Of a stretch of 33,652 nucleotides of DNA, positions 2,533 through 33,570 are shown one piece after another. Where the stretch lies: positions 55,748 to 89,399 of the forward strand of contig MHMZ01000012.1 in assembly GCA_001819555.1 (NCBI GenBank), read 5' to 3'. Both the position numbers and the translations under genes were made by a program. The notes below the pieces were generated by a model. The model saw only the letters and a program-made list of their open reading frames with translations, did not search any database and was not told the DNA's origin. Numbering within the stretch: the first letter of the stretch is position 1; every line of letters begins with the position of its first letter. The DNA is from Candidatus Portnoybacteria bacterium RIFCSPHIGHO2_02_FULL_39_12 (GTDB lineage Bacteria; Patescibacteriota; Minisyncoccia; Portnoybacterales; UBA2143).

Positions 2533-4407
2533 ATGAGATTAGAAGAATTAGAGAAGAAAATTTATCGGCCCGGAGAAGAATTCGGAGAACGGCCAAGAAG
2601 TCCGGAGATTTTTTCTCCGGGCCAAAGAGAAAAGAAAATCAGACAGGGTAAGTGGCTTAGAACAGAAAAAAGTAAATTGACGCCGAAACAAAAACAATAT
2701 TTGCGCCGCAGCGGCATTTTTTTGATAATCGGATTTTTAATCGCGGCCGGCTTTATGATTTGGCGCAGTTTTATTTCTTTTGACAAAAGCAAAGTCAAAT
2801 TGGAAATTTCTGGACCCGAAAGAATAGAGAGCGGAGACGAAGCTGTTTACGCCGTCAAATACGGCAATAAAAGTAAAATAACCTTAAAAGACATTAAATT
2901 GGTTTTTTATTTTCCCGAGGATTCTTTGCTCATAGAAACGGCAAATGAGGATTTGATTCAAAGTTCAGAACTAAGTGATTTGGGGGCTGGCCAGGAAAGT
3001 TGGATTGAGTTAAAAGCGAGAATTATCGGCCAAAAAGACAGCCAGAAAAAAGTTCAGGCCCGATTAAGTTTTCGGCCGGCCAATCTCGGTTCCCGTTTTG
3101 AAAATCAAGCCGAGTTTTTAACTAAAATTATTTCTGTTCCTTTAATTCTTGATTTTGATTTGCCCAATCGGCTGGTCAGCGGCCAGTCCTTTGATTTTTC
3201 TCTGGAATATCTTAATCAAGGGGAGGTTGCTTTTAAAAATTTAGAGCTGAAACTGGAATATCCGGCTGGTTTTAATTTTAAGTCAGCCGAGCCAGAGCCT
3301 CTGGAAAGAAATAATCTTTGGCCGGTGAGCGATTTAATGGCCGGCGGAGCGAATAAAATTTTTATCCACGGCGCCATTGAAGGCCGGGAAAATGAAAGAA
3401 AATCTTTTAAAGCGCAATTAGGCGTTTTAAGAAACGATCAATTTATCCTTTATACAGAAACAGTTGAGGCCGTTCAAATTTCCGTCTCTCCCCTTTTTGT
3501 TTCTCAAACCGTCAACGGGAAAACCGACTATGTTGCCAAAGCCGGAGAGGTTTTAAATTATCAGATTGATTATAAGAATACGACCGATGTTGGAATTAAA
3601 GATGTGGTGATTACCTCTCAATTGGACGGCTCTGCTTTGGATTTAGCCAGCTTAGAATTGGAAAAGGGCTCTTTTGACGGTTTAAATCGGGTCATTACAT
3701 GGAATGCCGGCAATTTGCCCGCTTTGGAATTTTTGGGGCCAAGACAAGAAGGAAAAGTAGAATTTAGGGTAAAAATTAAAGATTCTCTGCCGATTAAAAA
3801 TTATTCAGATAAGAATTTTTCTATTACTAATACGGTTAAAATTAATTCTTCCCAAATTCCTCTTTCTTTGGCCAGTATCCAAGTGAGCGGCCAGAGCCAG
3901 TTGACCACAAAAATAGCCAGTCAACTGACCTTAGAAGCTAAGGGATATTTCAGGGATGATTTAATTCCCAATTCCGGCCCGATTCCGCCCCGGGTTGGCC
4001 AAGCTACGACCTATACGATAAAATGGCAAGTGTCAAATACTTCCAATGATTTAAAAAATGTCAAAGTTGCGGCTTATCTGCCTCCCCATATCCAATGGTT
4101 AGGCAAAGTCAAACCAAGCGAAGAAGATTTAAAATATAATTCAGGGACCGGTCAGTTAATTTGGTCAATCGGCGATCTGGCGGCGGCTACCGGACTTCTT
4201 TTGCCGGTCAAACAAATCGCTTTTCAGGTGGCGATTACGCCGAGTTTGACTCATGCGGGCGGTTTAGTGGAATTAATTGGTCAATCAATCGCTACTGGCA
4301 AAGATTCTTTTACGGGCTTAGAATTAACAAGCGCAGACGAGCCGATTGATACTGACCTACCCGATGATTTGACCGTTAATCAGCAAGATGGGATAGTGGC
4401 GGAATAA
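2533..4407 (+). CDS. membrane-anchored DUF11/CARDB-like repeat protein (ORF called from 2497; better start at 2533)
   Basis: Single N-terminal TM (SGIFLIIGFLIAAGFMIW) followed by Ig-like repeats (e.g. GEVLNYQIDYKNTTDVGIKDVVITSQL). The 2497 ATG lies inside a palindromic repeat; MRLEELEKKIYRPGEEF is a more natural start. Confidence 0.6.
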   Translation: MRLEELEKKIYRPGEEFGERPRSPEIFSPGQREKKIRQGKWLRTEKSKLTPKQKQYLRRSGIFLIIGFLIAAGFMIWRSFISFDKSKVKLEISGPERIESGDEAVYAVKYGNKSKITLKDIKLVFYFPEDSLLIETANEDLIQSSELSDLGAGQESWIELKARIIGQKDSQKKVQARLSFRPANLGSRFENQAEFLTKIISVPLILDFDLPNRLVSGQSFDFSLEYLNQGEVAFKNLELKLEYPAGFNFKSAEPEPLERNNLWPVSDLMAGGANKIFIHGAIEGRENERKSFKAQLGVLRNDQFILYTETVEAVQISVSPLFVSQTVNGKTDYVAKAGEVLNYQIDYKNTTDVGIKDVVITSQLDGSALDLASLELEKGSFDGLNRVITWNAGNLPALEFLGPRQEGKVEFRVKIKDSLPIKNYSDKNFSITNTVKINSSQIPLSLASIQVSGQSQLTTKIASQLTLEAKGYFRDDLIPNSGPIPPRVGQATTYTIKWQVSNTSNDLKNVKVAAYLPPHIQWLGKVKPSEEDLKYNSGTGQLIWSIGDLAAATGLLLPVKQIAFQVAITPSLTHAGGLVELIGQSIATGKDSFTGLELTSADEPIDTDLPDDLTVNQQDGIVAE

Positions 4408-4503: not shown

Positions 4504-5838
4504 ATGTCTATGATTACTTTAGAAAAAATCGTTTCTTTTGCCAAACGCCGCGGCTTTATCGGGCCGTCGTCAGAAATGTACGGCGGTTTTGAAAGTTCCT
4601 ATGACTACGGGTTTTTAGGCGCGGAATTAAAAAACAATATTAAAAAAAGCTGGTGGAAGAGTATGGTTCAAATACGGGAAAATATTGTCGGTTTGGATTC
4701 GGCTATTTTAATGTCGCCGAAAATCTGGCAGGCCTCGGGCCACTTAACCGCCGGCTTTGCCGACCCGTTGGTTGAGTGTAAAAAATGCCATCATCGCTTT
4801 AGAAAAGACCATTTAAAAGAAAACAAATGCCCTGATTGCGGCGGAGAATTAACTCCGGAGAAAAAGTTTAATTTAATGCTTAAAACCTTTCTCGGGCCGG
4901 TTGAGGACGAGGCGGCTATCACCTATCTTAGGGCTGAAACCTGCCAAGGAATTTACATGAATTATGAGTTTATGAAAGATACTATGCGCTTAAAAATTCC
5001 TTTTGGCATTGCCCAAATCGGCAAGGCCTTTAGAAACGAAATCACCCCCAGATATTTTATTTTTAAAACCCGCGAATTTGAACAAATGGAAATGCAGTAT
5101 TTTGTCTCGCCGGACGATAAAGAAAAAGATAAATGGTTTGAATTTTGGAAAAAAGAAAGAATGAACTGGTATTTAAACTTGGGAATTAAAAAAGAAAATC
5201 TGCGTTTTAAAGAACACGAAAAAGACGAGCTGGCTCATTACGCTAAAAAAGCCGTTGATATTGAATATAAGTTTCCTTGGGGTTGGGGCGAAATAGAAGG
5301 CATTCATGACAGGGGCGATTGGGATTTATTTAACCACGCTAAACACAGCGGCCGGGATTTAAGTTATTTTGACGAAGCAATAAAAAAGAAATTTATTCCC
5401 CATATTATTGAAACCTCGGGCGGCGTTGAAAGAGCTCTTTTAGCTTTTTTAATTGACGCTTATCAGGAAGTTAAAGGCGGCCGGACCAAAACCACGGAAA
5501 GCGTTAAAGAAATGGAAGTAGTTTTAAAGCTTCATAAAGATTTAGCGCCGATTAAAGTGGCGGTTCTGCCCTTAGTCAAAAACAAAAAAGAACTGGTTAA
5601 AAAAGCCCGGCAGGTTTATGACTTAATTAAGCCGCATTTTATGAGCCAGTATGACGAAGCCGGCGCCATCGGACGCCGTTATCGGAGACAGGACGAAATA
5701 GGCACGCCTTTGACAATCACGATTGATTTTGATAGTATAAAACAAGACGACTTGACTATTCGCGATAGGGATAGTATGAGACAGGAGAGGGTTAAAATTG
5801 AAAAATTAGTTGATTATCTTTGTTCTTTACTAAAATAG
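4504..5838 (+). CDS. glyS: glycyl-tRNA synthetase (single-chain type)
   Basis: MITLEKIVSFAKRRGFIGPSSEMYGGFESSYDYGFLGAELKNNIKKSWW; class II motifs and RYRRQDEIGTPLTITIDFD. Confidence 0.95.
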   Translation: MSMITLEKIVSFAKRRGFIGPSSEMYGGFESSYDYGFLGAELKNNIKKSWWKSMVQIRENIVGLDSAILMSPKIWQASGHLTAGFADPLVECKKCHHRFRKDHLKENKCPDCGGELTPEKKFNLMLKTFLGPVEDEAAITYLRAETCQGIYMNYEFMKDTMRLKIPFGIAQIGKAFRNEITPRYFIFKTREFEQMEMQYFVSPDDKEKDKWFEFWKKERMNWYLNLGIKKENLRFKEHEKDELAHYAKKAVDIEYKFPWGWGEIEGIHDRGDWDLFNHAKHSGRDLSYFDEAIKKKFIPHIIETSGGVERALLAFLIDAYQEVKGGRTKTTESVKEMEVVLKLHKDLAPIKVAVLPLVKNKKELVKKARQVYDLIKPHFMSQYDEAGAIGRRYRRQDEIGTPLTITIDFDSIKQDDLTIRDRDSMRQERVKIEKLVDYLCSLLK

Positions 5839-30008: not shown

Positions 30009-31145
30009 ATGACTAAATCATTCATTTACGCTTTTTCAACTTTGACCGGCACGATTATCGGCGTTGGTTTTTTTAGTCTGCCCTATATCGCTTCTAAGGT
30101 TGGTTTTTGGGTTATGCTTTTTTACTTTATCGTTTTGAGCCTGGTGGTTATCTTAGTTCATCTTTTATACGGCGAAATTGCCTTGAGAACTAAAGGGCTT
30201 CATCGTTTACCGGGTTATGTGGATAAATATTTTGGTTCCGGAGGTAAAATTTTTAGTCTTTCCGCGGCTATTTTAGGAGGGTATGGAGCGCTTTTAGCTT
30301 ATCTCATTGTTGGCGGACAATTTACTTTTTCTCTTTTAAGCCCGATATTCGGCGGCTCTGATTTGGTTTATACTCTAATTTACTTTTTTTTCGGCGTTTT
30401 TTTAGTTTATTTCGGCATCAAAAGCATTGCTCAGATAGAGTTTTTCGCTTTAATTTTATTTTTCGCGGTTCTTTTTCTGATTTTTTGGCGCGGCTCTGCT
30501 TTGATTGAAATAAAGAATTTATTTGTTTTTGATAAAAATTATCTTTTTTTGCCTTACGGGCCAATACTTTTTTCTTTGACCGGCATTGCCTTGATGCCGG
30601 AAATCAAAGAGATGCTTAAAGACAATCCTAAAAGCCTTAAATCGGTTGTCCCTTTGGCCATTTTTGTTTCCGCGCTCGCTTATCTTTTTTTTATTTATTT
30701 GATTTTGGGCATTACCGGCCAAAACACTTCAATTGAAGCTATTGCCGGCTTAAAAACTTTTTTAGGCGACGGCCTGGTGTCTTTAGCTCTTTTTTTCGGG
30801 GTTTTGACCACTTTTACTTCTTTTATTACTCTTGGTTTGACTCTTAAAAAAGTTTTCTGGTATGACTTAAAATTTCATAAGAATCTGTCTTGGTTTTTGG
30901 CTTGTTTTGTGCCCTTGGCTCTCTTTTTTCTTGGATTTAAAAACTTTATAACTATAGTCGGCTTGACCGGCGGCGTAATGCTGGGCATCGATGTTCTTCT
31001 TATTCTTTTTGTTTATCTGAAAGCAAAAACCAAAGGCGAATTAACGCCGGCTTACAGTCTTTCTTTGCCCCGTCCTTTGATTTACTTTTTAATCCTTTTT
31101 TTTATTTTAGGCATTATTTATGAAATCATCTACTTCATTAAGTAA
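30009..31145 (+). CDS. aromatic amino acid permease-like transporter
   Basis: About 11 TM segments; N-terminal STLTGTIIGVGFFSLPYIASKVG resembles the HAAAP/AAAP family. Confidence 0.75.
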   Translation: MTKSFIYAFSTLTGTIIGVGFFSLPYIASKVGFWVMLFYFIVLSLVVILVHLLYGEIALRTKGLHRLPGYVDKYFGSGGKIFSLSAAILGGYGALLAYLIVGGQFTFSLLSPIFGGSDLVYTLIYFFFGVFLVYFGIKSIAQIEFFALILFFAVLFLIFWRGSALIEIKNLFVFDKNYLFLPYGPILFSLTGIALMPEIKEMLKDNPKSLKSVVPLAIFVSALAYLFFIYLILGITGQNTSIEAIAGLKTFLGDGLVSLALFFGVLTTFTSFITLGLTLKKVFWYDLKFHKNLSWFLACFVPLALFFLGFKNFITIVGLTGGVMLGIDVLLILFVYLKAKTKGELTPAYSLSLPRPLIYFLILFFILGIIYEIIYFIK

Positions 31146-31710
31146 ACAAATAAAGGGCAAATATCAGCTGAGAGCGCCCAGGCCAAAAAAAGAAGAGCAG
31201 GAATTCGGCCCCGGGGAAATTGATATTTTAATGTGTCAAAAGTGCGAGGCGGTTTATTATTACAAAAGTTGGCATCATCGGCTGGAGGATTACCAATCGC
31301 TTTCTGAAGATAAACCCCGCACCTTTTCTGGATATGCTTCGCATAAAATTTATAATCCAGAAAAAGCGCGGGGTAAAAGAATAAAATTTATTCTTTGTCC
31401 GGCTTGCCAGATGATTAAAGACAAAAAATACGAAGGCCGGATAATTTTGAAAAATGCGCCGCCAGAGAAAAAAGAAGAAATTTTAGGACTGGTTAAAAAT
31501 ATAGGCGAGCGGGCTTTTCAAAGAGACCCTTTGGACAGAATTATTAGTATAAAAAGCAAAAAAGGAGATATAGAAATTTTAACAACGGAAAATCAATTAG
31601 CAGTGAGTATTGGCAAGCAAATCAAGCGCGCTTTTAAGGGCAGTTTGGAAATCCAATGGTCGCATCAGGAAAGTATAGCGAGGATTATTTGGAATTATGA
31701 AAAAATTTGA
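31120..31710 (+). CDS. zinc-ribbon protein (NMD3/BCAM0308-like?)
   Basis: ILMCQKCEAVYYYKSWHHR ... FILCPACQMIKDKKYEGRI two CxxC knuckles; C-terminal LTTENQLAVSIGKQIKRAFKGSLEIQWSHQ. In-frame palindrome 31315-31373. Confidence 0.5.
   Translation: MKSSTSLSKQIKGKYQLRAPRPKKEEQEFGPGEIDILMCQKCEAVYYYKSWHHRLEDYQSLSEDKPRTFSGYASHKIYNPEKARGKRIKFILCPACQMIKDKKYEGRIILKNAPPEKKEEILGLVKNIGERAFQRDPLDRIISIKSKKGDIEILTTENQLAVSIGKQIKRAFKGSLEIQWSHQESIARIIWNYEKI
31315..31373. repeat. CCCCGCRCCT palindromic element, copy 3 (in frame in zinc-ribbon gene)
   Basis: CCCCGCACCTTTTCTGGA / TCCAGAAAAAGCGCGGGG near-perfect 18-bp arms. Confidence 0.9.
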
Positions 31711-32098
31711 AGTTTTAGAACACACCGCGGATTTAAAAATTAAGGCCTTTGGCAAAGACCCAAAAGAGCTTTTAGAAAACGCTATGCTCGGGATGTATAA
31801 AGGGGCTGGTTATTTTGGCGAGGGAAGGAAAATAAAAAGAGAAATTGAGATTTCTTCCGTGGACACGCCCGCTTTATTAGTTGATTTTCTAAGCGAAGTA
31901 TTATATCTGACTGAAACCGAGCAGGAAGTTTACCAAAAGATTCAATTTCAAGAATGCGGCGAAAAACACATTAAAGCCGCGCTTATTGGTAAAAAACTCA
32001 AAAAAATAGAGACGCAAATCAAGGGCGTCACCTATCACGATTTAGAGATTAAAAAACTTGACAACCGCTGGCAAGCGGTTGTATTATTTGATATATAA
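31697..32098 (+). CDS. archease
   Basis: KFEVLEHTADLKIKAFGKDPKELLENAMLGMY...LLVDFLSEVLYLTETEQEVYQKIQF...IKGVTYHDLEIKKLDNRWQAVVLFDI. Confidence 0.92.
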   Translation: MKKFEVLEHTADLKIKAFGKDPKELLENAMLGMYKGAGYFGEGRKIKREIEISSVDTPALLVDFLSEVLYLTETEQEVYQKIQFQECGEKHIKAALIGKKLKKIETQIKGVTYHDLEIKKLDNRWQAVVLFDI

Positions 32099-32139: not shown

Positions 32140-32415
32140 TCTTTAGAAGAAGAGTCAGTTGTAAGAAGAAAAGGAGGGCAGCGAGTGGTTTCTTTTCTTC
32201 ATAAGTTAAGTAAAGAAGATGCCTCCCCTATTTTTAGGGGACTGCTCGTTTGTTAACCTTTTCTCCTGCTGGCTTCCAGCAGGTGGATTGTTTTAGTAGG
32301 GACTCCAGCCGCACCTGGCGTTTCCTGATTTGTCTGGGCCCTTCGACTTACTTTGAGATGCTTTAGAAAAGTTGGTCGAGTAATGGTAGTCTACGAACTG
32401 GCTCTTCTTCGCTTC
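32140..32415 (+). ncRNA. putative retron ncRNA (msr-msd)
   Basis: 15-bp a1/a2 pairing GAAGAAGAGTCAGTT (32146-32160) with AACTGGCTCTTCTTC (32396-32410, one G:U). Internal hairpins: 32165-32172/32193-32200, 32225-32230/32235-32240, CCTGCTGG-CTT-CCAGCAGG 32265-32283, and msd-like stems 32296-32304/32388-32394 and 32343-32354/32368-32379. Immediately upstream of a retron-type RT. Confidence 0.75.
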
Positions 32416-32450
32416 TGTTATTTAACAAATTAAAAGAGGGGTAGAATTGA

Positions 32451-33437
32451 ATGAATAACGAAAAACTGAAAAAAGGAATAAATGAAATTTGTAATTTTCT
32501 TGAGTATAATCCCGGAATAATGGATTTAGAAAAGGCCTTTGAGGGGCGCAATTCTTATCAGCGGATATTTATCCGCAAGCGCGGCGGCAAGAAAAAAGGA
32601 AAACGGGTTATCCATGTCCCGCCGCCAAAATTAAAAAATGTTCAAAGCGTGATTCATAGGCGCGTTCTTGAAATGGTTGAATGGCCGGCGTCGGTCCATG
32701 GATTTGTAAAAAACAGGTCTCATCTGACTGCCGCCCTAAAGCATAGTCGTTCAATTCCTCCGCCTGTCGCGCTTTTGCTTATTGATTTCAAAGATGCATT
32801 TTCTAATGTAGGGGTTAAAAAAGTAGAGCGGGCTTTAGATAAAAGATTACAGCCCAATTTACTTTGTCCTTTAAGTCCCGGGGCCATAAAACTGCTGGCA
32901 AAACTTATTACCTATCGCGGCCGGCTGCCCCAGGGCGCTCCGTCTTCGCCTACGATTTTTAACCTTGTTGCTTTAGATTTAGACGAGGTGCTGTCTGTTT
33001 ATGCTGAAGAGCGTGGCTATACTTATACCCGTTATGTTGATAATATTGCGGTTTCCAGCCCAAAGCCGATTCCGAAAAACGAGCGCGCAGAAATAATTGG
33101 GTTATGCCGTCAATTTGGCTTTCAGGTAGTGTCTGAAAAGGCGCGGTATCAAGAAGCAAAATGGGGCGTATTAGAAATGACCAAGGTTCTTTTACAGCCA
33201 TACGGTGGACAAAAGTGGTACGCAAGCTATGGCCTCGGACTTTCTAACAGAAAATTTGTTGATAAAGTCCGGGCTATGGTTCACCGAGCCCAAAAAGACC
33301 CTTCAATTTCTCTTGCGAGCATTTGGGGAAAAATAGATTATGTCCGGTTGGTTGACCCGTATAAATTGTCCAGTCGGCTAAGTAAACCGATGCGTCAATT
33401 GCGTAGTATACAATCAAATTTAGAAAGGAGGAAATAA
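32451..33437 (+). CDS. retron-type reverse transcriptase with YVDN catalytic box
   Basis: VHGFVKNRSHLTAALKH (region X-like), LLLIDFKDAFSNV (motif A), GRLPQGAPSSPTIFNLVALDLD, YTYTRYVDNIAVSS, VLEMTKVLLQPYG (VTG-region equivalent). Confidence 0.85.
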   Translation: MNNEKLKKGINEICNFLEYNPGIMDLEKAFEGRNSYQRIFIRKRGGKKKGKRVIHVPPPKLKNVQSVIHRRVLEMVEWPASVHGFVKNRSHLTAALKHSRSIPPPVALLLIDFKDAFSNVGVKKVERALDKRLQPNLLCPLSPGAIKLLAKLITYRGRLPQGAPSSPTIFNLVALDLDEVLSVYAEERGYTYTRYVDNIAVSSPKPIPKNERAEIIGLCRQFGFQVVSEKARYQEAKWGVLEMTKVLLQPYGGQKWYASYGLGLSNRKFVDKVRAMVHRAQKDPSISLASIWGKIDYVRLVDPYKLSSRLSKPMRQLRSIQSNLERRK

Positions 33438-33444
33438 AAAAGGG

Positions 33445-33477
33445 GCAGCGAAAAGAAAACGCTACCCTTTTCTTTTT
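33445..33477 (+). terminator. terminator after retron RT
   Basis: GGGGCAGCG AAAAGAAAA CGCTACCCTTTTCTTTTT hairpin with T-rich tail. Confidence 0.7.
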
Positions 33478-33481
33478 GGTT

Positions 33482-33529
33482 AAAAAGTTGACAACCGCTG
33501 GCAAGCGGTTGTATTGTTTGATGTATGAA
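33482..33529 (+). repeat. direct repeat copy 2 (archease 3'-end-like) flanking retron module
   Basis: AAAAAGTTGACAACCGCTGGCAAGCGGTTGTATTGTTTGATGTATGAA; encodes KVDNRWQAVVLFDV-stop in the homologous frame. Confidence 0.95.
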
Positions 33530-33543
33530 CTAACACAGTTCTT

Positions 33544-33570
33544 TTGACAACTTTTTTAAGTAAATACAAT
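33544..33570 (+). promoter_or_regulatory. possible promoter for ORF at window end
   Basis: TTGACA (33544-33549), 15-nt spacer (short), TACAAT (33565-33570); AGGGAGGG SD then ATG 33587. Confidence 0.4.

Follow-up and report, generated by a model that had tools for sequence, protein, structure and literature searches.

Elements that integrate at gene 3' ends and leave those ends restored typically rely on tyrosine integrases. In Acinetobacter, the pdif/Re27 modules offer a precedent for cargo that lacks a recombinase of its own, with host Xer as the proposed trans-acting enzyme (PMC7399989). Retrons, which combine an msr-msd noncoding RNA (ncRNA) with a reverse transcriptase (RT), do not appear to encode mobility functions according to a 2019 review, which also reports that Retron-Eco5 (Ec107) replaces a palindromic 34-bp intergenic segment (PMC6868368).

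We analyzed a 33,652-nt stretch of DNA (the window) from Candidatus Portnoybacteria bacterium RIFCSPHIGHO2_02_FULL_39_12, a small-genome member of the Patescibacteria. Between two copies of an archease gene end lies a retron-like cassette of about 1.43 kb that consists of an ncRNA and an RT. In our reading, to which we give a probability of about 0.68, the two units that look like a promoter with a palindrome are the flanking repeats of this inserted cassette, which would have recombined at the end of archease. As in gene-3'-end integrative elements, a short duplicated gene end stands on both sides, a putatively element-borne end keeps the gene intact, and a remnant lies on the far side; however, the cassette measures only 1.4 kb and has no integrase. 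It resembles retrons in that a structured ncRNA with a long terminal inverted repeat immediately precedes a retron-clade RT, but differs in its flanking gene-end repeats and in the retron motifs NAxxH, VTG, and YxDD, for which this RT reads TAALKH (keeping A and H), MTK, and YVDN; we therefore call it retron-like rather than a retron. Like the Xer modules, it would be small cargo between two recombination sites with no recombinase of its own, although here the repeats are gene 3' ends, and we claim no resemblance to dif sites. With Retron-Eco5 it shares a retron location at a palindrome and no other sign of mobility, whereas that case is a replacement without repeats and the window carries a duplicated repeat. 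Among the hits listed, our literature search, of incomplete coverage, found no account of this arrangement in retrons of the Patescibacteria/Candidate Phyla Radiation (CPR). The features of the locus, in window coordinates, are as follows.

31697-32098, plus strand: archease gene, 133 aa (Pfam PF01951, E 3e-32 over 4-133), its last 15 codons inside repeat copy 1
32052-32098, plus strand: repeat copy 1 (45 nt to 32096 and the rest of the stop codon TAA), the functional archease 3' end, probably cassette-borne by analogy with dnaJ in genomes G437 and G321
32058-32087, plus strand: sigma70-like promoter candidate TTGACA-N18-TATTAT, matching 11/12 consensus positions, the best candidate for ncRNA transcription (TTGACA 32058-32063, TATTAT 32082-32087, 18-nt spacer)
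32061-32082, no strand: palindrome of copy 1, a perfect 9-bp inverted repeat, ACAACCGCT-GGCA-AGCGGTTGT, with a GGCA loop, at the center of the identical core
32146-32410, plus strand: structured ncRNA with an a1/a2-like terminal stem, GAAGAAGAGTCAGTT / AACTGGCTCTTCTTC
32451-33437, plus strand: retron-like RT, 328 aa, active site YVDN (PF00078, E 6.8e-17)
33441-33476, plus strand: probable intrinsic terminator of the RT gene, an imperfect GC-rich stem and T run found by reading the sequence and absent from the consensus scan
33482-33528, plus strand: repeat copy 2 (45 nt to 33526 and the rest of the stop codon TGA), a displaced archease end, probably the native one
33488-33517, plus strand: promoter-like pair of copy 2, TTGACA-N18-TATTGT, 10/12 consensus (TTGACA 33488-33493, TATTGT 33512-33517)
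33491-33512, no strand: palindrome of copy 2, identical to that of copy 1
33544-33570, plus strand: a further promoter-like pair, TTGACA-N15-TACAAT, read by eye and nearer the next ORF than copy 2
33588 onward: ORF after copy 2, cut by the contig end (33588-33652 in the window)

At 32058-32087 and again at 33488-33517, the preliminary description had reported promoter-like hexamers and a perfect 9-4-9 palindrome, and both units are present in the sequence. Contrary to what had been thought, the palindrome extends beyond the spacer that separates the -35 and -10 boxes, taking in three bases at the end of the -35 box and one at the start of the -10 box; the two copies are likewise real, but the repeated unit is longer than described, at 45 nt plus a stop codon. 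The copies (32052-32096 and 33482-33526) form a direct repeat that is 93% identical (3 mismatches in 45 aligned nt), has an identical 28-nt core containing the palindrome, and is spaced at 1430 nt; a fourth difference falls in the stop codon, which is TAA in copy 1, TGA in copy 2, and thus kept in both. Allowing up to three mismatches, the 45-nt repeat occurs exactly twice in the 712-kb assembly; shuffles of the window gave no match, and viral contigs held no exact copy. Folded as single-stranded DNA, the palindrome hairpin has an energy of -10.5 kcal/mol (z -5.3).

The 45-nt stretch, for all its resemblance to a promoter with a hairpin, represents the final 15 archease codons, which occur twice and flank a small RT cassette. 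Copy 1 encodes the conserved archease C-terminus, W-x-A-x-V-x-F-D-I-stop, while copy 2, read in the archease frame, gives K V D N R W Q A V V L F D V stop; aligned, the two ends are KVDNRWQAVVLFDV-stop and KLDNRWQAVVLFDI-stop. Each of the four nucleotide differences is synonymous or conservative or preserves the stop, an outcome with a chance probability of about 0.03-0.05, so that this comparison, taken by itself, weakly suggests that copy 2 originated as a gene end. Because an in-frame stop directly precedes it, copy 2 is not translated as archease. None of the 22 archease homologs compared has the palindrome, their best stems near the gene end being 3-7 bp; the closest of these homologs is only 48% identical to the archease of the window, and the comparison therefore cannot date the palindrome relative to the insertion. 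In relatives archease is followed by rtcB, its usual partner, which was not found in this assembly; the contig (C12) ends with the window, about 125 nt after copy 2. The gene directly upstream of archease (31120-31710) is a bacterial one with an NMD3-family match (E 6.8e-9), and it occurs also in G008, G011, and G054.

The cassette itself comprises only the RT and the ncRNA, with no integrase or other notable ORF between the repeats. A single tyrosine recombinase match was found in the whole assembly, and it looks like the host Xer enzyme; this Xer-like protein is encoded in the region 6549-7061 of contig C33. The region 32140-32420 folds with a z-score of -4.37, unequaled in 200 shuffles; the terminal stem of the ncRNA, 15 bp long and beside the RT, forms an a1/a2-like inverted repeat as in a retron, and an internal hairpin is recognizable in the relative G041. 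Rfam returned no match above gathering in the window and one sub-threshold match that we attribute to chance. The RT belongs to the retron clade by its profile matches (PADLOC RT_III-A, E 4.3e-39; NCBIfam retron_St85_RT, 2.5e-37, under the curated cut-off of that model). Single-protein scans of viral and genome contigs found no close relatives of it, and an alignment scan of genome contigs gave distant RTs only. The YVDN active site has counterparts in YADA (the closest relative, L005 of G041) and in YADN or FADN (L040, L047, L048, and L055), such that CPR retron-like RTs with an altered second catalytic aspartate form a group. A second RT, of which the C-terminal part lies at 1393-1851, near an N run in the scaffold before the window, is group II/DRT-like by NCBIfam.

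At 127 retron-like RT loci, we compared the two flanks of the RT in search of similar sequences. The window ranked first (score 75), followed by G141 (67) and G437 (46), and more than 120 of the loci lacked such a flanking repeat. In G437, another Patescibacterium, a related RT cassette stands at dnaJ with the dnaJ 3' end on both sides, the second being a 24-codon end that adjoins the topoisomerase IB gene, 1433 nt from the intact dnaJ. Of these 24 codons, 10 differ synonymously and 4 non-synonymously between the intact gene and the remnant, which are further set apart by an in-frame 6-nt indel. In G321, of the same family, an intact dnaJ directly abuts topoisomerase IB with no cassette, providing the matching empty site. 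The G437 remnant overlaps the topoisomerase IB stop codon, just as the intact dnaJ does in G321; together with the empty site, this indicates that the remnant is the native end and that the cassette brought in the end now used by dnaJ. In G141, the repeat is a 36-nt terminator hairpin with one mismatch, at -321 and +50 of the RT and with only these two copies in the genome. Lower-ranking pairs were kept as weak or chance cases (L041, two similar terminators around the RT with a score of 37; L066, which is ribosome-binding-site-like), and L074 and like pairs, high in the protein-level flank scan, were set aside as GC-rich low-complexity sequence. The repeat pair of L056 was rejected as a second flanking repeat, since both members lie on the same side of the RT and belong to an ncRNA hairpin that occurs twice: the hairpin region upstream of this YADA RT is found at 4043-4077 and 4639-4673 (77% identical), as though the ncRNA, but not the RT, had undergone duplication.

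In a control scan, 128 ORFs picked regardless of RTs gave few scores of at least 45, namely one 49-nt promoter repeat, simple-sequence repeats, and the dnaJ case again. The 49-nt repeat (3 mismatches) lies at 40054-40102 and 41238-41286 of C12 (54-102 and 1238-1286 of L098), with TTGACA on the minus strand, before two small two-gene toxin-antitoxin-like modules. On contig C16 of G732 (L213, 2340-2545), a decayed second dnaJ C-terminal fragment lies about 2.6 kb from the intact gene, with non-RT cargo between them, and the dnaJ 3' end thus seems to be a recombination hotspot in this family. These two cases show that flanking repeats, like the dnaJ hotspot, are not confined to retrons or RTs.

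We postulate that the cassette had its own copy of the final 15 codons of an archease gene, and that recombination of this copy with the resident archease end, within the 28-nt core around the palindrome, would have inserted it. The resident gene would thereby have gained a cassette-borne 3' end (copy 1), and its old end would have been left on the far side as a noncoding remnant (copy 2), a direction of replacement that we assign by analogy with dnaJ. Since the cassette encodes no recombinase, either a trans-acting site-specific enzyme or ordinary short-homology recombination would be responsible. The model predicts an empty archease site that reads ...LFDV-TGA followed by ACTAACACAG, and an excised cassette whose circular joint reads GGTTAAAAAGTTGAC...TTATTTGATATATAAGGGG. 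A duplicated gene end that flanks the insert and leaves the gene intact is found at archease, with a parallel at dnaJ; the empty site is seen for dnaJ (G321 versus G437), and for archease the searches found neither family or genus mates that have the gene nor a close relative with or without the cassette, and so no archease empty site. The earlier proposal of a recombination core is supported as regards an insertion scar, by the duplicated and codon-conserving gene end, the dnaJ case with its empty-site relative, the terminator hairpin of G141, and the restriction of the repeat to just two genomic locations; the palindrome would have served as the core itself.

Copy 1 may additionally drive the ncRNA, which we judge plausible at about even odds. 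A crossover between the -35 and -10 boxes would leave a promoter-like pair at every junction, with the better -10 box in the cassette-borne half, and copy 1 could in this way have acquired such a role. The alternative that copy 1 is simply a working promoter for the ncRNA and RT, with a palindrome incidental to that function, is compatible with insertion, and we consider it a toss-up. Its boxes have an allowed spacing and match 11 of 12 consensus positions, and no better promoter lies between 32098 and the ncRNA stem. Sites with at least 11 matches number 10 in the 89-kb contig (both strands) versus about 0-2 per strand in Markov-shuffled sequence, and the others fall mostly outside genes, suggesting that such matches are usually meaningful in this genome; copy 1 is the only one of the ten wholly inside an ORF, where coding constraint on L-D-N and V-L-F could yield the boxes by chance. 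Several related CPR ncRNAs with clear terminal stems begin 5-7 nt past TTGAnn...TATAAT-like boxes (L044, L046, L048, and L010), whereas 58 nt separate copy 1 from the predicted ncRNA stem, an unusual leader that tells against a promoter here with or without an operator; read-through from archease would, moreover, transcribe the cassette too. Nor is copy 2 the nearest promoter-like pair to the ORF beyond it, the pair at 33544-33570 being closer. The preliminary description had gone further and proposed a shared regulatory module, in which a repressor or activator bound to the spacer palindrome would co-regulate the ncRNA and the gene after copy 2. The near-perfect boxes, the genomic excess of consensus sites, the perfect dyad right in the spacer, and a second copy that also points at an ORF would all fit an operator. 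The genome, however, holds no third copy with up to three mismatches, the cassette has no regulator gene, the promoters of the related ncRNAs examined show no such dyad, and one duplicated coding segment accounts for both units. Conservation of the palindrome where archease has no retron had been set beforehand as a check, and its absence from the 22 homologs counts against a conserved regulatory module while being neutral for insertion. We therefore find the operator unsupported and very improbable.

Two other routes to the flanking repeats were weighed. If the cassette had (retro)transposed and copied 45 bp of its target, with later drift, a direct repeat would bracket an RT element as observed, and the review that describes the palindromic 34-bp site at Retron-Eco5 also cites a possible retrotransposition of Ne160 (PMC6868368). 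The differences between the archease copies, however, preserve coding in a nongenic copy, and the dnaJ ends of G437, with their 10 synonymous codon changes and in-frame indel, show a codon-level divergence not expected of a fresh duplication; such target-site duplication thus appears highly unlikely. Ordinary homologous recombination, by which foreign circular or linear DNA with an archease end and a retron entered through a single crossover over about 45 bp, with no specialized site, would agree with the lack of an integrase and with the presence, in this contig and in G732, of other cargo next to repeated gene or promoter sequence. Against it, the homology is limited to the extreme 3' end (15 codons in archease, about 20-24 in dnaJ), like the attachment sites of integrating elements, the cassettes agree in size (1430 and 1433 nt), and 45 bp with mismatches is short for RecA, so that we regard this route as doubtful though less remote.

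As a long shot, the small retron-type RT/ncRNA cassettes of Patescibacteria may be a class of integrase-less mobile units that carry a host gene 3' end, often one that can form a hairpin, and move by recombination there, either with a recombinase from the host or a helper or by means of single-stranded DNA from the retron itself; in the window, the attachment site would double as the ncRNA promoter. For the question of how retrons spread, cassettes flanked by replaced gene ends, together with the empty-site relative at dnaJ, offer concrete junctions. They also illustrate that a duplicated gene end can mimic a regulated promoter.
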